A stretch of DNA of 46,327 bases from contig JAGXSG010000001.1 of the NCBI GenBank assembly GCA_018333995.1, positions 1 to 46,327 of the forward strand, written 5' to 3'. Below the pieces are notes generated by a model that was not told the DNA's origin, made no database searches, and worked only from the letters and a program-made list of their open reading frames with translations. This document shows positions 1 through 9,037 of the stretch, piece by piece. The DNA is from Clostridiales bacterium. Lineage in GTDB: Bacteria > Actinomycetota > Coriobacteriia > Anaerosomatales > SLCP01. Within the stretch, counting starts at the first letter, position 1. Each line of letters starts with the position of its first letter. Both the position numbers and the translations under genes were made by a program.

Positions 1-445
1 AATCACTGCCCTTGTCAACCCAGGCAAGCGCTTTCGCATGACACGCCTCAACGCAACGAGGGCCAGATGGCACGCCCGCAGCAACGCTAAACCCAGCGCA
101 TGCGTCACACTTATCCATTTTCTTGGTGTCCGGTTGAAGCACCATGGCACCGTACGGACACGCCCACTCGCAGCGACGACAGCCTACGCACGCGGATGTG
201 TTCAGCGTCACCACTCCGCTGGCAGCGGATTTGGACAACGCGCCCTTAGGACACGCGGCCACACATGATGGCTCCTCACAATGGTTGCATGCTATCGAAA
301 CGAACACGCGGGAATTCGCGATATCCCTTGTGTAGACGCTGCGGCGGCTGACACCGCTCGGCGAAGCGTAACGAATCTTGCAGACCGCGACACACGCCTT
401 ACAGCCAACACACCTCTTGAGATCTACGACAAATCCCTTCGCCAC
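1..445 (-). CDS. 4Fe-4S ferredoxin-type electron-transfer subunit of a molybdoenzyme (partial, 3' end outside window)
   Basis: The frame runs off the left edge, so about 148 N-terminal codons are visible. It starts at GTG 445 behind GGAGGT with a 9-nt gap. Sixteen cysteines fall into four clusters: C12/15/18/22, C53/56/61/65, C86/89/92/96 and C113/116/131/135, the pattern of DmsB/PsrB/NrfC-type subunits that wire a molybdopterin catalytic subunit to a membrane quinol module. No signal peptide is visible, as usual for subunits co-exported by the Tat system with their catalytic partner. It lies 57 nt downstream of the catalytic gene in the same direction. An NrfD- or DmsC-like membrane anchor would be expected just beyond the window; that is inference. 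Confidence 0.9.
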   Translation of the reverse strand, partial: MAKGFVVDLKRCVGCKACVAVCKIRYASPSGVSRRSVYTRDIANSRVFVSIACNHCEEPSCVAACPKGALSKSAASGVVTLNTSACVGCRRCEWACPYGAMVLQPDTKKMDKCDACAGFSVAAGVPSGPRCVEACHAKALAWVDKGSD

Positions 446-501
446 CGGTTATGCACCTCCTTCGTGATCCATTGCACGCATGCAGCGCATGCAACCCGAC
501 A

Positions 502-3234
502 CTACGCTCTTGCGATTCGTACCTTGACGTCGGTCATCAGAGCTGATGCCGAGGGATCGCGCCGTGCAACCTGAATCGGCAATGGCAACGCTGTGACGAG
601 CGTGTTGTCGTTCGCCCCGACACCGGCAGACGCATTGAGTCCAAATGCTCTCTGTGTCTGATTTCCAAGCGAATCAAGCGCCCTCGAATGCGACAGGGCC
701 CACGTGCCCCAACCATGCGGTATGAGGATGCAGTCCTGGCGGATGTGCTCGGTCACCCTGATAACGCCTCGCTCTCTCGCGCCCGGAATCTGCGGTGTGG
801 TAATTATGACCTCATCGCCTTGGACGAGACCGAGAGCGGATGCCGAGGTCGGGTGGATCTCGATCCGTCCCTTGTCCGACAGCTCGACCATCAACTCATC
901 AGCTTTACCCTCGGTATGGATGAGCATGGGTTCACGATTCGTCAGCAGCCAGAACTCTCCCAGTGCCGGATTCGGAAGTGTGATGGCTCCCGTCCCCACG
1001 CGAGGAGGCGCCCACCCCGGGAAACGCTCGATAAGCGTTGCCGCACCATTAGCGTCCGGCACTGTAGCGTAGGCGCTCGTAATTCCGGCATGAGCTCGAG
1101 CGCGTACATCCAACCGCACCCGACTTGCGGTGCTAAGCGCCGAGTAGTCGACCCAGACGGGTGCCGTTGCAGGCGTAGGCCTGATTCCCGTCCTGTCACC
1201 GGCGATTCCCGCACGGGAGGCAAACGTTGTCATGCTGGTTACGCCTGAATCCCACCCCAGCGCGATGGAGGGTGCGTGAACAGCCAGGTCCGCCAGTCTC
1301 CGATTGTTGAGCGCCCCGCCGCTCCAAGCCGGTCCTGTCAGCAACCCGTTGGTCGTGAAGAACATCCTCAGGCTGTTTCGATTGGTCATGAAGTTCGGGT
1401 TTGCCGTCGCCCATGCGGGATTGGCGGCCGCCCGTGCATCAGCGTAGGCTTGACACGCCTGCTGATACGTATTCCTGCCGACCACCACCGCATCCGCGGC
1501 GACTCCGATTTCCCTGATCGCACCAGCCAAAGAGACCGACTGCCCGATCGTGGTCGTGATCGAGCGCTCCTGGAATGCCACGTACCCATAGTTGCTCATC
1601 GCCTGGGTCCCACCGCTTCGGACCAGAAAATCCCTCTCGTTGTACGAGGGCTCAGGGAGCAGAACGTCAGACATCCACACCCCGGCATCGGCGTAGTAAC
1701 AGTGGTTGACGATGAAGCACTTCTCGAGCGCCCGCACCGTCATGTTCGTGTCGCAAGAGATAAACGGCGTGTTGTAGTGGTGATTGAATACCCAACGGAC
1801 GGGATACGGATGATCCTTGTCCATCTGGTCAAAGCCGGTTTCAAAGGAGCCGTGGTCGGGCGAAGTACCGGGCCACCACTGACGGAAATCGCCGCGCGGA
1901 AACGCCTGCCCGGTCGCAGGGTCAACTTCGTGAGCGGGAAAGCCGCCCGCCGGCAGCGGAAACGCGGTGTTGACCCCTGTCCACGACGGAAGCTGCCGAT
2001 CTAACAGATTGCCTCCCCGCCGATCAATCGAGCCAACCAAAACGTCGAGCACCACAGTAGCGTACGCCTGGCGCCACGAGTTCTCATAGTTTGGCCCTGC
2101 GGCGCCGTCACGCTTGTGGCTCATCACATGAGGGCGATGATCCGTGTAGACACCATCGTTGGTGAACTCCAAGGCGACTTGAAGGATGTCAGCGGCAGGC
2201 ACACCGGATTTCGCTTCTGCCCATGCGGCGACATCCGCGACACTTGCTGTCGACGTAAGTTCACCTGCGGCAAACCCATTCGTATCCACGAAGGCACGGA
2301 AATCGGTCCAGTCGGTAGCGTTGACATAGATGTCGATGAAGTTCGCGTTCCACTTCTGGTTAGCCACTATCCACTTGATCATGGCCCACATGACCGCGAG
2401 GTCAGTTCCCGGCTTGATCGCGTAGTAGCGACCACCGTAAGCGAGCGCCTTCGCAGCCATGTTGCTCAACCGCGGATCAAAGACCACCGACTTGGCCCCA
2501 TTATCAAGCGCCTTGATCACGCCAGCGACCGTTGGGTTCTGGGCACGCCCTACCTGGTCATGACCGAACGAGAGCAGATACGTGGAGTGCGCGTAATCAT
2601 GCGTCCACGTACGTCCGCCTCGGGCGATTTGGGGCACCATTGCCGGCCATGCCCATGTGTACGTGGTAAAACACGTCGACTGGTGCGACATGTGGTTCGG
2701 CGTCCCCAGTGCGTCCCTGAGTCGATTGACCCAGTCATTCCGGCGCGAGAGAACCATCGCCGCTTTCGGGCCATGCTGCTCTATCGTCTCCAGCAGGCTC
2801 TTCGCGCACAACTCATATGCCTCGGCGAAGCTTATGCGCACGAAGCCCGGGTCCTCGTTGGGACCCTTTCTAGGGTTGGTGCGCTTCATCGGGAACAGAA
2901 CTCTATCTGGACTCAGCGCCTTCTGGGGACTGCCGTACCCCTTCACGCATAGCGTTCCCGTGCCGTCACCAAACTGATTCGAGCACGGATGCGCTGGGTT
3001 TCCAAACACTTCGTACCGCCCGCTGCTCACTCTGCCGATGAGACCGCATTGCGAGCCGCACATCCGGCAAATCCCTACCGAATCCCTGAACACCGAACTC
3101 GCTCTAGCTTCCTGGGCCTCAACGAAATACTTGGTCGCGCCCGCGCCAATGCTCGCGCCGACGCCCAACGCGCCCATCAGTTTAGTGAACGAGCGCCGTG
3201 ACATGGGACGTGTCAAGGGTGTTGTGGTGGACAT
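502..3234 (-). CDS. Tat-exported molybdopterin oxidoreductase catalytic subunit (DMSO reductase superfamily)
   Basis: A 910-residue protein from ATG 3234, preceded by AGGAGGT 6 nt upstream; an in-frame TTG one codon earlier is less likely. A twin-arginine motif SRRSFTK (residues 12-18) precedes a hydrophobic stretch. C56/C59/C63/C96 form the N-terminal [4Fe-4S] motif (Cx2Cx3Cx32C). HQSTC, ending at C188, sits where Cys-ligated enzymes of the superfamily (Psr/Phs/Arr-like) bind molybdenum, so C188 is the proposed ligand. The C-terminal part matches the dinucleotide-binding domain. A TorD-like chaperone and two cytochromes lie upstream and a ferredoxin subunit downstream, indicating an extracytoplasmic respiratory oxidoreductase. 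The substrate (sulfur, arsenic, selenium or nitrogen oxyanion, or an organic oxide) cannot be deduced. Confidence 0.92.
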   Translation of the reverse strand: MSTTTPLTRPMSRRSFTKLMGALGVGASIGAGATKYFVEAQEARASSVFRDSVGICRMCGSQCGLIGRVSSGRYEVFGNPAHPCSNQFGDGTGTLCVKGYGSPQKALSPDRVLFPMKRTNPRKGPNEDPGFVRISFAEAYELCAKSLLETIEQHGPKAAMVLSRRNDWVNRLRDALGTPNHMSHQSTCFTTYTWAWPAMVPQIARGGRTWTHDYAHSTYLLSFGHDQVGRAQNPTVAGVIKALDNGAKSVVFDPRLSNMAAKALAYGGRYYAIKPGTDLAVMWAMIKWIVANQKWNANFIDIYVNATDWTDFRAFVDTNGFAAGELTSTASVADVAAWAEAKSGVPAADILQVALEFTNDGVYTDHRPHVMSHKRDGAAGPNYENSWRQAYATVVLDVLVGSIDRRGGNLLDRQLPSWTGVNTAFPLPAGGFPAHEVDPATGQAFPRGDFRQWWPGTSPDHGSFETGFDQMDKDHPYPVRWVFNHHYNTPFISCDTNMTVRALEKCFIVNHCYYADAGVWMSDVLLPEPSYNERDFLVRSGGTQAMSNYGYVAFQERSITTTIGQSVSLAGAIREIGVAADAVVVGRNTYQQACQAYADARAAANPAWATANPNFMTNRNSLRMFFTTNGLLTGPAWSGGALNNRRLADLAVHAPSIALGWDSGVTSMTTFASRAGIAGDRTGIRPTPATAPVWVDYSALSTASRVRLDVRARAHAGITSAYATVPDANGAATLIERFPGWAPPRVGTGAITLPNPALGEFWLLTNREPMLIHTEGKADELMVELSDKGRIEIHPTSASALGLVQGDEVIITTPQIPGARERGVIRVTEHIRQDCILIPHGWGTWALSHSRALDSLGNQTQRAFGLNASAGVGANDNTLVTALPLPIQVARRDPSASALMTDVKVRIARA

Positions 3235-3238
3235 CAAT

Positions 3239-3940
3239 CTACCTCCTCACTTCTTCTATTCGGCCTTCTAATCCGGCTAGACAGACGTCTATGCCAAGCA
3301 TCTGCGCATCCACTCTCAAGAACTCTGATCCGACACGTGCCGCATCGGCGTAGAACTCGGCTCGCGGGTCGGCCGCGACCCTGTCGAAGAACCTGGGAAT
3401 CCACGTCATCACGTGTGTCCCAAGGTAGTTCACAAGCACATCGGGGAAGCTGTTCGCTGTGTTCGCTGAACCGCTTCGCGCCACGCGGCCGGATAGGACC
3501 GATGCAAAATAGAGCTCGGCGCCCACATGATCAGCCAGCCATATGTCTTCCTCGCGCGGAACCAGTCCTTCATCGTGGTAGCAGTCGAGAACATCGCGCC
3601 ACGCGTCACCCATCAGGCGGGGCCTGTCACTCAGCCAACACGAAGCGTTCGCGTAGATCCTGTCGTGGCCGCAGAAGAGTCGTGCGTACTCGATCGCAAC
3701 ACGCTCGACAAGTCCTTCATCGCACGCAACCAGGGTGGCCGCGACTCTGTTGGCAGACTCCGGTGCGATTCCCGCCTGGGCGAATGCACGCAATGCGTGT
3801 CCACCTTCGCCGCCGCCGATCGAAAGCGCATCCTCCACTCCGAGTTCGCGTTCAAACAAACGTCCCAACAGTGCGTAAGCGACCTCTCGGCCCGTCGCCT
3901 CTTCCTTGATCGATAGGATCGTATCGTTCATGCTCGGCAT
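3239..3940 (-). CDS. TorD/DmsD-family molybdoenzyme maturation chaperone
   Basis: A 233-residue cytoplasmic, largely helical protein without signal peptide. It resembles the TorD/NarJ-like redox enzyme maturation chaperones, which bind the Tat leader and apo-form of a molybdoenzyme until cofactor insertion. The central stretch with DYxHDEG-like residues (CYHDEGLVPREED) and the region before it fit the family. Start ATG 3940 has GGAG 9 nt upstream. Its stop lies 4 nt before the ATG of the catalytic gene, so the two are translationally close and it is almost certainly the dedicated chaperone of that enzyme. The exact subfamily is uncertain. Confidence 0.85.
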   Translation of the reverse strand: MPSMNDTILSIKEEATGREVAYALLGRLFERELGVEDALSIGGGEGGHALRAFAQAGIAPESANRVAATLVACDEGLVERVAIEYARLFCGHDRIYANASCWLSDRPRLMGDAWRDVLDCYHDEGLVPREEDIWLADHVGAELYFASVLSGRVARSGSANTANSFPDVLVNYLGTHVMTWIPRFFDRVAADPRAEFYADAARVGSEFLRVDAQMLGIDVCLAGLEGRIEEVRR

Positions 3941-3965
3941 CTTTCATGACTCCAGTCTTTGGAAG

Positions 3966-4535
3966 TCAGAAACGGTTCGTTTCCTCAGCCGCATAGAAGT
4001 CCAGGCCTCCATGACACTTGGTGCAGTAGGTGCTGCTGCGAGTAAAAAACCTGTTCACGTTGTCCACAGTGGCATGTATGGCTTGCGGATCGACGTGGCA
4101 TCCCGAAATCGTGCACCCTCGCGGATCAGTGAGCGCAAAGTCGATTCCGCCGTGCGCGTTCACGGTGAATCCGCCGTGACACCCCAGGCACGACTCGGGA
4201 TCCACCTGCTTACCCATGGTCGCCCCATCGGCATCCCACGTATTCGTCGACTGGTGACACGACGCGCACCCGTTGGCAGATGTCTGGTAGGTTAAGAATG
4301 CCGAGTACAGGTGACGCTTGTGGGCAGTGAATGTCTGTGGATCGAGTGATCGCTCGAGAGCCATCTGTCCGTGACACCCAATGCACTGCGCATTAGTCAC
4401 AGTGGCGGAGTCTAGATGCGCCGCATGTGAGTTAACCCCGGCGAAACTGGCGATGACAGCAGACGCCCCGAAGCCCGCGACAAAGACCGTACCCGCAATA
4501 GCCATGACCAGTAGTCGGCTACTCAGTGTAGACAT
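3966..4535 (-). CDS. Small multiheme c-type cytochrome (four CxxCH plus one Cx4CH motif)
   Basis: A 189-residue protein with an N-terminal hydrophobic segment (about residues 7-31) serving as signal peptide or membrane anchor. Heme c attachment motifs are CIGCH (51-55), CASCH (90-94), CLGCH (116-120) and CTKCH (171-175). CTISGCH (141-147) is an unusual Cx4CH site of the kind known from cytochromes c3. Up to five hemes are therefore possible. It lies 25 nt after a second cytochrome gene and 25 nt before the chaperone gene. Its likely role is electron transfer between the membrane quinol pool and the exported molybdoenzyme, or onwards at the cell surface; the direction of flow is unknown. Confidence 0.88.
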   Translation of the reverse strand: MSTLSSRLLVMAIAGTVFVAGFGASAVIASFAGVNSHAAHLDSATVTNAQCIGCHGQMALERSLDPQTFTAHKRHLYSAFLTYQTSANGCASCHQSTNTWDADGATMGKQVDPESCLGCHGGFTVNAHGGIDFALTDPRGCTISGCHVDPQAIHATVDNVNRFFTRSSTYCTKCHGGLDFYAAEETNRF

Positions 4536-4560
4536 GAGTCGAATCCTCCTTTCCGGTTCA

Positions 4561-5367
4561 CTAGGGCAGGAGGCCGGCGACGTGACATTGGAGGCACAAT
4601 CCGTCGGGCTCCATCGTCAACATCGCATCCGTGTATGACGTGTGCGGAAAGTCTGCTGTAGTTGTTGTGGCGACACTATTCCCATGACACGTCAGACACG
4701 CGTAGTCCGGGTGGTTCCGATGGACGTCCCCCGATGCCCTCCTGTCGTGACACGCCGCGCACCAATCTCCGCCCTGGGTAAGCCACGATCCCGTGAGGGT
4801 CGCACTCAAGTCTTGAGCGGAATGATTGGGTCGAGACGACAACAACGCCGGACTGAAAGTAGCCGGCATCACGTTCCCAAAGGCTCCATGAGGAGTGTGA
4901 CAGCTGGCACAGTACAAGCCCCTTGTAGCCGTGAAAGCGGTCGCGGAAACGGTCGCCGGATAGCTCAGGTACTGGATCGCCGTCAACGCCCCGCTGCCGC
5001 CGGGAATGTGGTTGTTCCCCAATCCAAGCCGGTGGCCTTCGTGCGTGAGCCGATCAGAAATGGGCACGTTGTATGCTGCTAGGTTCGGTACCGCAGCAGC
5101 GGAAGTGCCGGAGAACCCGGGGTCATAGGCACCCGTGGGCGCCGACTGATAGAGGGTGTGACACGTCGCGCACACGTCGGTGACGGTCGTCTCCCTCATA
5201 AGCACGTAATCCCCGGAAGCCTCATGCATATCGTGACATTGCAGACATGAGTCCGTCGCCATGCTGTAGCCACCGTGCGGGATCGTCGAGCCATCGGCCG
5301 CGAATACGACGGCGACGGACGACGAAGCGGCAAGCATCAGCACAACCGCGATAATGGTCGCTCTCAT
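4561..5367 (-). CDS. Six-heme c-type cytochrome, first gene of the respiratory operon
   Basis: A 268-residue protein with a classical Sec signal peptide (about residues 1-23, ending VFA). It has six CxxCH motifs at 41-45, 66-70, 153-157, 203-207, 224-228 and 258-262. Further His residues (for example the CHTPH and CHDMH contexts) could serve as distal ligands, as in the NrfH/doubled-CxxCH type cytochromes. Start ATG 5367 follows GGGAGGTG. As the first gene of the minus-strand operon it faces the 425-base control region and the divergent sensor genes. It is probably a periplasmic or surface electron carrier; no catalytic domain was recognised. Confidence 0.9.
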   Translation of the reverse strand: MRATIIAVVLMLAASSSVAVVFAADGSTIPHGGYSMATDSCLQCHDMHEASGDYVLMRETTVTDVCATCHTLYQSAPTGAYDPGFSGTSAAAVPNLAAYNVPISDRLTHEGHRLGLGNNHIPGGSGALTAIQYLSYPATVSATAFTATRGLYCASCHTPHGAFGNVMPATFSPALLSSRPNHSAQDLSATLTGSWLTQGGDWCAACHDRRASGDVHRNHPDYACLTCHGNSVATTTTADFPHTSYTDAMLTMEPDGLCLQCHVAGLLP

Positions 5368-5445: not shown

Positions 5446-5480
5446 TTCCGGTGTTCTCGACATCGAAATAAACACCGGAA
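5446..5480. promoter_or_regulatory. Perfect inverted repeat, candidate operator
   Basis: TTCCGGTGTT (5446-5455) and AACACCGGAA (5471-5480) are exact reverse complements separated by 15 nt, with centres 25 bp apart. The element sits 79-113 bp upstream of the ATG of the first cytochrome gene. No U tract follows on either strand, so an operator is more likely than a terminator. The regulator is unknown; the LytTR regulator encoded nearby is a candidate, although LytTR sites are usually direct repeats. Confidence 0.5.
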
Positions 5481-5792: not shown

Positions 5793-6713
5793 ATGGACGC
5801 GAGGCGGCTGCTGCGGCTTTCTTTGGCAACTACAACAGCGATGACGCTGGTGTTACTTGCGTTCATTTCGAGCGCGGGGAACAGTGTGGACTCCTCCGTG
5901 ACCGAAGACTCACCACCGTCAGGCCGATCCCTCACCATCGCCGTCACACGGCTTGTCGGCGGTTGGGCCGCATGGCCTTCGTTTACAGAGGCGCTCGAAC
6001 ATGTCAGCCAGTCTACCGGGGTTCCGATCCAAGTAAGATTCCTGGCCCCGGGCGAGAGCGCTGAGGACATCTTTGCTGAGGACAGCGATGTGGATGCGGC
6101 CTTCATGTCGACATACGCGTTTCTGTTGGTCCGAGAGAAGAAAGGGGACGTCTCCCACCTTGCGACGCCGATCATCCGGGGGCGGACGTCTGAGCGGGCC
6201 GTGTTCGTCGTACATGCCAACAGCCCATACCTGAGCCTGCAGGAATTGAGGGGCGCCCGTCTGGCGCTCTCCCCTCCCGGCGTGGGCGGTTCGATACCTG
6301 GAAACGCCTATGCACGATGGCTGCTGCAGCAAGAGGGGCTCGGTGACGCAGAGGAGTTCTTTCGCGAAGTCGACGAGACATCCAGCCAGGATGCAAATCT
6401 TCAACTGGTTCTGAACGGTTCAGCCGATGCGACCACGGTGAGTCTTAGTCAGCTCGCCTCCTGGCCACAGGGTTCCTTTCGAGTACTCCACTATTCTGAG
6501 CGCTTCGCCATGCCTCCCTTTGTCGTCTCCCCGGAGCTCAGTGACGCCGAAGCCGAATGGATCATCGATGCGCTGGTAAGCTACACACCGGACGGCGATG
6601 ACGCGATTCTCGGGGGATTCACGCGACCGAGGCAAGAGGATTACGATTTCCCCTATATGCTCCTACGTTTCGCCCGAGACAGAACTGCGCCTATGGAGAG
6701 CGCCAAGCAATGA
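5793..6713 (+). CDS. PhnD-like periplasmic binding protein, probable signal-sensing partner of the adjacent kinase
   Basis: A 306-residue protein with an N-terminal export signal (RR plus hydrophobic residues about 6-28, no lipobox cysteine). The body resembles PhnD-type binding proteins: an opening beta strand LTIAVTR, a DVDAAFMSTYAFLLV segment and ALSPPGVGGSIPGN near the ligand pocket. No ABC permease or ATPase lies nearby. Instead the stop overlaps the start of a histidine kinase by 4 bases (ATGA). Stand-alone PhnD-like proteins next to kinases include AioX/ArrX arsenite sensors, so a sensor role for an oxyanion-like ligand is inferred. The ligand itself is unknown. Confidence 0.8.
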   Translation: MDARRLLRLSLATTTAMTLVLLAFISSAGNSVDSSVTEDSPPSGRSLTIAVTRLVGGWAAWPSFTEALEHVSQSTGVPIQVRFLAPGESAEDIFAEDSDVDAAFMSTYAFLLVREKKGDVSHLATPIIRGRTSERAVFVVHANSPYLSLQELRGARLALSPPGVGGSIPGNAYARWLLQQEGLGDAEEFFREVDETSSQDANLQLVLNGSADATTVSLSQLASWPQGSFRVLHYSERFAMPPFVVSPELSDAEAEWIIDALVSYTPDGDDAILGGFTRPRQEDYDFPYMLLRFARDRTAPMESAKQ

Positions 6714-8278
6714 GCAGTACATCCGTCGCGCGTGAAAGAAAGAGCAGATCTCTTGCCCTTCGATTCGTGCGCATGACCATCCTAGGGCAAGCTTTGTTCG
6801 GCGTCATGCTCGGTCTCGGTGCCGGCGCGTACGTCGTCGTTTCGGACTATCGTGCCCGGTATGTCTACATGGAAGATGTCGCTGGCGCCATGGCGGCGAG
6901 CTTGATGCCGATGGTGATCGACCGAGACATTCCCGCCGTACAAGGGCAACTAGGGATCCTGCAGTCCCTCGCTGGACGCGGAGACATAGTGGGCATCGAA
7001 TTCTCTGACACCTCTGGCCGTGTTCTGGCGACCATAGGCGACCTGCATACAGTGGACACCTCGCCAGCTTCCACGCCCATCATTGACCGGCTCTTCGGCC
7101 CGCACTCAATTAGGCATCACATCGCTATTGGTGACGTGCACTACGGTAGTGTACGGCTCGCGTTCGGGGAACGCTCTCTCATCGAGACGCTCGGTGCTGC
7201 GATGGTGGTCGCGCTACTGGTCACCCTGTCAGTCGTGTTGGTGTCCGCTCTTTGGTTCTCCTGGCTTACAGTGCGGACGGTGATCGAGCCAATCCAGGCC
7301 ATTCAGACGGCGGCGCGGCGACTGGCCGACGGCAAGCGTGACATATTCTTGGGACTCAAGAGGAACGACGAGATCGGATTGCTTGGGGACTCGATCGAGA
7401 ACCTTGCGCAGCAGCTGCAGAAAGGTGAAGCGGAACTGCGGGATGCTCTCAGGGACGCCCGGAAAGCACAGATCGGTGAGGCTCGGTTGCGAAAGAAGAC
7501 CGAGGAGGAAGCCCAGCTCAAATCTGACTTCGTGGCGGTCATCGCTCACGAACTGGGCACACCATTGTCCGTGGTGACCTTGTACAGCGATGTATTGGTT
7601 TCCAGCAGGGAGCGCGAAGCCGATGAGGACTCCGCAGAGGTGATCGATGGCATCGCCGCCGCCGCGTCTCGACTGAACTCCATCGTCAATGACTTGCTGG
7701 ACACGGCGCTGCTCGATCGCGGAGTGATGCGGATCACGATGAAACCGGTCGATCTGGCCGAGGTCGTCCGCGAAGCGGCGAAGGATGCTGCGCGATTGAG
7801 TGACACTCATGACTTGCGCGTAGATCTTGGTGCACCCGATCGACCCGATCGGCCATTACTTGTACACGCTGACAGAGTGCGAATCCGACAGATTCTGGAT
7901 AATCTCCTGTCTAACGCAACCAAGTATTCGCCGACCGGAAGCACAGTGACAGTCCGGGCTTTCCGCGACAATGATGATGCTGTCATCCAGGTGGAAGACC
8001 AGGGGCCAGGAATTCCCCACGCAAGCCGGTCAAGAGTGTTCCAGATGTTCGGCCGTCTGGATCATAGCGACAATCGCGACACAGCCGGTTTAGGTCTCGG
8101 GCTCGCGATCAGCGCGAGGATCGCCCAGGCCCACTCGGGGACACTCGGCTTCGAAGCGGGAAACGGTGGCGTGGGAACGGTGTTCACCCTGAGTATTCCT
8201 CTTCTCAGCACCGATGAAATCAACCCCCAAGGCCATGGACCGTCGACTGTAAAGATCATTAAGGAAGCGGAGGTGTGA
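6710..8278 (+). CDS. Membrane sensor histidine kinase (HAMP-HisKA-HATPase)
   Basis: A 522-residue kinase. A first membrane helix (about 23-46), an extracytoplasmic sensor region of about 110 residues and a second helix (about 160-186) precede a HAMP linker (187-238) and a coiled coil. HisKA carries the phospho-acceptor H280 in AHELGTP, where Gly replaces the usual Lys/Arg. HATPase_c shows the N box around N398/N402, DQGPG (430-434) and GLGLG (460-464). The gene overlaps the binding-protein gene by 4 bases and is followed after 3 nt by the regulator gene, so the three form one transcription unit. The binding protein probably docks on the sensor region. Confidence 0.93.
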   Translation: MSSTSVARERKSRSLALRFVRMTILGQALFGVMLGLGAGAYVVVSDYRARYVYMEDVAGAMAASLMPMVIDRDIPAVQGQLGILQSLAGRGDIVGIEFSDTSGRVLATIGDLHTVDTSPASTPIIDRLFGPHSIRHHIAIGDVHYGSVRLAFGERSLIETLGAAMVVALLVTLSVVLVSALWFSWLTVRTVIEPIQAIQTAARRLADGKRDIFLGLKRNDEIGLLGDSIENLAQQLQKGEAELRDALRDARKAQIGEARLRKKTEEEAQLKSDFVAVIAHELGTPLSVVTLYSDVLVSSREREADEDSAEVIDGIAAAASRLNSIVNDLLDTALLDRGVMRITMKPVDLAEVVREAAKDAARLSDTHDLRVDLGAPDRPDRPLLVHADRVRIRQILDNLLSNATKYSPTGSTVTVRAFRDNDDAVIQVEDQGPGIPHASRSRVFQMFGRLDHSDNRDTAGLGLGLAISARIAQAHSGTLGFEAGNGGVGTVFTLSIPLLSTDEINPQGHGPSTVKIIKEAEV

Positions 8279-8281
8279 GAA

Positions 8282-9037
8282 ATGGCTGAAGAACATCCGG
8301 TTGCCGGCGGCGGAAAAGTGCTGATTATCGATGACAGCGTTGACCTTCTCAAAGGGCTCCGTATGGTGCTTTCCAGAGAAGGTTATTTGGTCGAGACACT
8401 CAACAAGCCCGCGATGGCCATGAGTGTTGTTAAGAGCACCCACCCTGACCTTTTGATACTTGATGTAATGATGCCGGAGGTTGACGGCTGGCAAGTCCTC
8501 CGTAGCGTCAGGGGCGATGCTGACACAGCAAACATTCCGATACTGATGCTGACCGCCAAAGGCTCACCTGAGGCCAAAATCTCGGGTTTCACTCTGGGAG
8601 CCGACGATTATCTGGTCAAACCCTTCGAGATTTCTGAACTCAAGTGCCGCATCGCCGCCCTGTTGCGACGCTCGGTGGACCACCAAAACCCCTCTCCCGC
8701 AGAATACCTGTTCCCCGGCTTCCTAGGCTCAGGCGAGTCGTTGCTGATTCCCTCAAGAGATGTCTACTTCGTCGAAGGAGCAAAAAACTACACGTACGTG
8801 CACACCTACGACAAGAAGTGCCTGAGTCGCTTGACGCTAGGAGAGGCGACCGCGGCCGCTCCGCATGGCTTCATGAGAGTCCATCGATCGTACTTGGTCA
8901 ACCTTGGAAGAATCGCATCCGGGAGGTGGGCTTCCTCCTCTCTCTACCGGGTAACCCTATCTGATGCCGATGGGACTCAGATCCCAATCAGCCGAGGGTT
9001 GGTCAGCCAGATCAGAACAGCGGCAGGACTGAAGTGA
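8282..9037 (+). CDS. Response regulator with receiver and LytTR DNA-binding domain
   Basis: A 251-residue protein starting at ATG 8282 behind GGAGGTG. The receiver domain (about 10-130) has the acidic pair D17/D18, phospho-acceptor D61 in LILDVMMPE, T91 and K113, so it should be phosphorylatable. The C-terminal part (about 150-250) is a LytTR domain with the characteristic MRVHRSYLVN. LytTR regulators usually pair with LytS-type kinases, whereas here the partner is a HisKA/HAMP kinase encoded immediately upstream. The likely target is the divergent respiratory operon, its own operon, or both. Confidence 0.92.
   Translation: MAEEHPVAGGGKVLIIDDSVDLLKGLRMVLSREGYLVETLNKPAMAMSVVKSTHPDLLILDVMMPEVDGWQVLRSVRGDADTANIPILMLTAKGSPEAKISGFTLGADDYLVKPFEISELKCRIAALLRRSVDHQNPSPAEYLFPGFLGSGESLLIPSRDVYFVEGAKNYTYVHTYDKKCLSRLTLGEATAAAPHGFMRVHRSYLVNLGRIASGRWASSSLYRVTLSDADGTQIPISRGLVSQIRTAAGLK

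Follow-up and report, generated by a model that had tools for sequence, protein, structure and literature searches.

At the start of the window (the whole stretch of 46,327 nucleotides analyzed here), a Tat-exported molybdoenzyme and its four-cluster ferredoxin are encoded in one conserved cluster with multiheme c-type cytochromes, and without a membrane anchor. Compared with the references sampled, the catalytic subunit is by its sequence a deep, uncharacterized lineage of the Psr/Phs/Arr region. What is new here is this clade, the missing anchor, the presence of four multihemes, and the linked sensor. The reading we favor, with confidence evenly balanced against doubt, is that of a cytochrome-fed, anchor-less Psr/Phs-like reductase of an oxyanion or sulfur compound, which would operate at the membrane's outer face.

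Gene content and conservation of the cluster

All five genes found between positions 1 and 5367 lie on the minus strand, and are transcribed in the order hexaheme cytochrome, pentaheme-type cytochrome, TorD, catalytic subunit, ferredoxin. The first encodes a secreted c-type cytochrome of 268 aa (4561-5367) with a signal peptide, six CxxCH motifs, and a doubled CXXCH domain (PF09699, 59 bits). Next comes a membrane-anchored (or secreted) pentaheme-type cytochrome of 189 aa (3966-4535), with four CxxCH motifs and one CX4CH. The latter reads CTISGCH and is conserved as CTVSGCH in G065, a genome from another family of the order, which agrees with the “up to five” hemes first proposed. A TorD/NarJ-type molybdoenzyme chaperone follows (3239-3940; PF02613, 51.7 bits against a cut-off of 22.2), and then the 911-aa molybdopterin oxidoreductase catalytic subunit (502-3237). 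This has a twin-arginine leader (SRRSF) and the Molybdop_Fe4S4, Molybdopterin, and Molydop_binding domains (PF04879, PF00384, and PF01568, all above cut-off). The last gene, truncated at the contig end, encodes the four-[4Fe-4S] DmsB/PsrB-type subunit (2-445; TIGR02951, 121 bits). The preliminary description had correctly given this gene content, with a secreted six-heme cytochrome, a Cys-type molybdoenzyme with a Tat leader, and a four-cluster ferredoxin, as well as the common direction of the genes; its gaps of 4-60 nt were slightly off, the distances in transcription order being 25, 25, 1, and 56 nt. Only 3 of the 92 frames in the window (stop-to-stop, at least 150 aa) contain any CxxCH motif, and two of these are the cytochromes described here (with 6 and 4), so the pair of cytochrome genes is not due to chance.

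As contig C1 of a genome of 1.95 Mb in 34 contigs (G000), the window starts where the contig itself does, partway through the ferredoxin gene. Another contig of this genome, C12, shares exactly 183 bp of identical sequence with this end, and the ferredoxin joined across the overlap has 183 aa and 16 Cys, i.e., four clusters. The presumed adjacency of the two contigs rests on this exact overlap and on the identical gene order in G065. Beyond the ferredoxin, C12 encodes a 414-aa polyferredoxin, one TPR and one NHL-repeat protein, and a small membrane protein. Two further cytochromes come next, with 6 hemes (164 aa) and 9 hemes (279 aa), and then proteins of 261 aa and 688 aa; CW_binding_2 domains are present in the G065 counterpart of the latter. 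Housekeeping-type genes follow. The whole cluster thus comprises 13 genes across C1 and C12, and with its 6 + 5 + 6 + 9 heme motifs it has four multihemes and 26 such motifs. While the genes first placed within 1-5367 are all there, the system is larger than that extent, with about 8 kb more on C12 and a sensor module at 5793-9037.

The CISM A/B architecture is present, in the form of the catalytic subunit plus four-cluster ferredoxin, but no CISM integral membrane anchor protein is encoded in the cluster, which has multiheme cytochromes instead. The preliminary description had proposed looking further to the left for an NrfD/DmsC anchor. No NrfD, DmsC, or cytochrome-b gene is found among the cluster proteins, C12 extension included; two more multihemes and the NHL and TPR proteins are found there instead. 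For three of the cluster's cytochromes, no PDB relatives are found by sequence. A consensus scan for sigma-70-like promoters found none, and the terminator count is no higher than the chance level.

The gene set is, as first supposed, a single conserved cluster, whose order is kept in G065 and partly in G002. In G065, the order is identical on a 15-kb contig, with identities of 91% for the catalytic subunit, 85% for the hexaheme, 82% for the pentaheme, 75% for the NHL protein, 61% for the 9-heme cytochrome, and 49% for the polyferredoxin. In G002, from the window's own family, the ferredoxin, TPR, NHL, and small membrane proteins and two multihemes are kept in order, followed by binding-protein, kinase, and regulator genes and, after these, the beginning of a hexaheme gene. 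The catalytic match there is a 44-residue C-terminal piece at 64% identity, as compared to 91% in G065 from a different family. This likeness of G000 and G065 across families may reflect horizontal transfer, or mis-binning of G065 contig C30. The hexaheme gene shows two peculiarities in these genomes. In G002 (L014:8056-9378), a domain of glycine-rich repeats, some 400 aa long, appears to be fused to its N-terminus, the contig stopping just past the first heme motif; in G065, a partial tandem copy with three CxxCH motifs lies upstream of the full gene (L013:1-525) and ends early on the contig.

Elsewhere, a catalytic relative at 47% identity is encoded in a termite-gut MAG (WQUG01000054.1, G075) with a NapC-type cytochrome, a ferredoxin, and TorD; the locus adjoins molybdenum-cofactor synthesis genes, an ABC importer, and a [NiFe]-hydrogenase. 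No further full-length close relatives of the catalytic subunit occur in a sample of 298 Coriobacteriia. Against 84,980 species genomes, a single-protein query gave no match; a three-row alignment query retrieved the termite MAG, all its other hits being distant enzymes. Hits in a plasmid collection were limited to PhsA and other distant enzymes, and none of the clade's members comes from an identified isolate.

Cofactor sites and phylogeny of the catalytic subunit

The cofactor-binding residues are intact: the three relatives all share the FS0 cysteines (Cys57/60/64/97) and, at the Mo-ligand position, Cys189. The enzyme resembles PhsABC and PsrABC in having a Tat catalytic subunit, a Cys ligand, FS0, and a four-cluster ferredoxin, and the HxSTC motif is common to it and PhsA. 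However, it is ~24% identical to these systems, its last FS0 Cys is followed by Lys in place of Arg, and the window's cluster has no NrfD-type or cytochrome-b anchor, but four multihemes, a polyferredoxin, and NHL/TPR and CW_binding_2 proteins. The best curated model, PhsA (NF012032), scores 217.8 bits against a cut-off of 694, and the next, ArrA, 100 bits against 1600, both below threshold. The best PDB match is the Thermus PsrA-type structure 2vpw (1.4e-36), and AlphaFold2 run from a two-row alignment reached a pLDDT of 28.

The invariant FS0 cysteines and Cys189 also bear on the idea of a Qrc-like, non-catalytic electron-transfer complex, in which the molybdopterin-type subunit would be a mere scaffold between cytochromes. 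Qrc, reportedly the subject of a study on QrcABCD, likewise has a multiheme cytochrome, a molybdopterin-family subunit, and a four-cluster ferredoxin. Yet its NrfD-type subunit is absent here, a TorD chaperone is encoded beside the intact catalytic subunit, and the QrcB model has no match for the window's subunit and gives the termite subunit 51 bits against a 440-bit cut-off. We therefore hold such a scaffold to be very improbable.

In a tree of 27 rows, the enzymes from the window, G065, and the termite MAG form a clade (100/100), whose sister group (100/100) consists of equally uncharacterized enzymes from other actinobacterial families. Direct union of the clade with PhsA is rejected (AU p 0.0085), as is its union with ArrA (AU p 0.012). 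Thus, on the point that the preliminary description had left to phylogeny, the subunit does not seem to nest in a characterized clade among the sampled references. For the clade plus its sisters, which falls within the Psr/Phs region, alternative deeper placements relative to PhsA, PsrA, and ArrA have AU p values of 0.17-0.28, and union to PhsA, sisters included, is not rejected (p 0.28). Since the reference set is limited, containing no characterized ArxA, SrrA, TtrA, AnrA, or catechol dehydroxylases, the lineage could still nest inside an unsampled characterized clade.

This last point matters for a possible organic substrate, on which the enzyme might act as, for instance, a reductase resembling the aromatic dehydroxylases. 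Such enzymes are said to occur in gut Coriobacteriia. An isolate of the Anaerosomatales also uses protocatechuate (PMC9686372). Nevertheless, aromatic-metabolism genes are not seen in the cluster, and the sampled Psr/Phs- and Arr-like enzymes of Coriobacteriia fall into separate clades, a weak argument given that no characterized dehydroxylase is in the tree; an organic substrate thus seems improbable to us.

The sister enzymes have other partners, namely a cytochrome-b-like anchor in G531, RnfC/RnfD genes in G547, and RnfD in G479, so that multiheme wiring marks the window's clade. In three sister genomes (G479, G547, and G622; L105:442-4473, L107:764-6890, and L106), the molybdoenzyme and TorD genes lie directly behind Rnf-type genes, with matches to RnfD of 275.7 bits in L105 and to RnfC of 517.7 bits in L107. 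This arrangement suggests an Rnf-linked molybdoenzyme.

The divergent sensor module

On the plus strand, divergent from the cluster, three genes encode a PhnD/ArrX-like periplasmic binding protein (5793-6713; PF12974, 101 bits; best PDB match ArrX, 9.5e-13), a HAMP histidine kinase (6710-8278; PF00672, PF00512, and PF02518), and a response regulator with a LytTR output domain (8282-9037; PF00072 and PF04397). Homologs of all three lie beside the cluster in G002 (39% identity for the kinase and 49% for the regulator), and none are found in the other cytochrome clusters read. The divergent intergenic region contains a perfect 10-bp inverted repeat, TTCCGGTGTT-N15-AACACCGGAA (5446-5480), which is single in the window, with none expected from window shuffles. 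No exact copy occurs in any other locus examined, and the repeat is a possible regulator site.

A binding protein, a kinase, and a regulator beside a molybdoenzyme recall the layout of ArrXSR and AioXSR (PMC5908839), and with ArrX as the best match of the binding protein, the system could be imagined as a variant respiratory arsenate reductase (ArrAB), with its own XSR regulation and with cytochromes replacing ArrC/CymA. The catalytic RTNPxKG..DPxF region is also ArrA-like, although this is common to the sister enzymes. However, the pocket Cys shared by AioX (Cys106), ArxX, and ArrX is Ser106 in the window's protein, which has no Cys at all and has Gln at the equivalent of His192. It is thus a relative of these proteins rather than a demonstrated arsenic sensor, and gives no support for arsenate. 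The LytTR-type regulator is a further difference, and both the ArrA score, far below its cut-off, and the rejected union with the ArrA clade stand against this variant, which we rate as about as improbable as an organic substrate. Arsenate reductase, raised by the ArrX match, was dropped after the pocket-residue check and the tree.

Cytochromes, proposed electron path, and direction

NHL homologs occur in 62 of the 69 genomes of the order, and homologs of the NHL, TPR, and multiheme proteins are present in other clusters of the order. In seven other regions (L086-L092), NHL-type and often TPR genes lie beside cytochromes, most with 7 to 14 hemes. None of these regions has matches to the window's molybdoenzyme, ferredoxin, or sensor proteins. 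The hexaheme has distant 7-heme homologs in other TPR/NHL/multiheme clusters of the order, while the pentaheme is found only in G000 and G065 among the 69 genomes. Given how widely NHL homologs occur in the order and how confined the pentaheme is, the cluster has the look of a general cytochrome module that is combined with a molybdoenzyme and supplemented by dedicated cytochromes.

The preliminary description considered dedicated multihemes unusual for such an operon. The pentaheme is indeed dedicated, but the pairing itself has precedents, since Nap, Tor, and Qrc also pair Mo enzymes with dedicated multihemes. Already known too are the TPR/NHL/multiheme modules of electron-export clusters and the combination of a CISM-type enzyme and a multiheme in DmsEFAB. 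In this extracellular DMSO/iodate reductase of Shewanella, a multiheme supplies electrons to an A/B pair of the CISM type that lies outside the membrane (PMC9048795), as is proposed here. DmsEFAB, which belongs to a Gram-negative bacterium, differs in relying on a single MtrA-type decaheme together with an outer-membrane barrel. Among the families matched in the window's cluster, no outer-membrane barrel gene is identified; the DmsE-family model gives the hexaheme 37.9 bits, below its cut-off of 192.2, and Escherichia coli DmsA is 20.5% identical to the catalytic subunit. In another phylum, a Nitrospinia MAG (L056:2-5009) has consecutive genes for an 8-heme cytochrome, an FeS protein, a molybdoenzyme, and TorD, a layout similar to the window's, with no obvious anchor gene and with an FS0 that reads CxxCxxxD.

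Within the order itself, multihemes are mixed with a molybdopterin oxidoreductase in Parvivirga hydrogeniphila (MCL4079376-90), where the Mo enzyme is presumed by its authors to be part of a formate dehydrogenase (PMC9686372). The genomes that fit Anaerosoma tenue and P. hydrogeniphila (G012, L083; G016, L085) contain just one PF00384 gene apiece, which has an in-frame TGA; in the latter genome, no ortholog of the window's enzyme was found. These two genes look like selenocysteine formate dehydrogenases, which leaves open the thiosulfate reductase proposed for Anaerosoma (PMC9686372).

The preliminary description had suggested a possible surface or periplasmic electron wire and had allowed for either direction. 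Were the system an oxidase, an external substrate such as a reduced sulfur compound would be oxidized, and the multihemes would export electrons to Fe(III), minerals, or partner cells. TPR, NHL, and multiheme modules of this type are found in electron-export clusters, both in the Anaerosomatales (PMC9686372) and in Dethiobacter (PMC10376724); an obligate Fe(III) reducer exists in the order (PMC9686372); and four multihemes with 26 heme motifs exceed the need of a quinol-to-reductase link. On the other hand, the closest characterized relatives, PhsA and PsrA, are reductases, and the termite relative lies beside a hydrogenase and a NapC-like cytochrome of the quinol-oxidizing type, as for an enzyme that receives electrons. 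We consider oxidation unlikely, albeit less so than arsenate or an organic substrate.

In the reductase model that we prefer, the cell would be a monoderm of the Anaerosomatales (OPB41) type, with the molybdoenzyme and ferredoxin on the outside of its membrane. A hydrogenase or formate dehydrogenase would supply the electrons, probably via menaquinol. The membrane-anchored multihemes (the 9-heme, 6-heme, and/or pentaheme) would then pass these electrons to the ferredoxin and on to the Mo center, where a small oxyanion or sulfur compound would be reduced. The NHL, TPR, and CW_binding_2 proteins may arrange the cytochromes within the cell wall. In the presence of a ligand, the cluster would be turned on by the divergent module of binding protein, kinase, and LytTR regulator. 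The genome also encodes [NiFe] hydrogenases, and its second PF00384 gene contains an in-frame TGA. Only one gene of the MqnA/MqnD family was found in it, and quinones were undetected in both cultured members of the order (PMC9686372). More speculatively, and in our opinion with a low probability, the cluster might represent an undescribed class of monoderm respiratory molybdoenzyme, its anchor replaced by a cell-wall multiheme conduit (26 predicted hemes), and working away from the membrane on an unrecognized inorganic acceptor or donor.

Respiratory electron transfer across the thick monoderm wall is poorly understood, and the order has a wide distribution, in sediments as well as in the subsurface (PMC9686372). 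The cluster offers a compact and testable case of a soluble-substrate molybdoenzyme that would be wired to cytochromes of the electron-export type, and the Psr/Phs/Arr region gains a clade whose electron partner differs from those of its nearest relatives.
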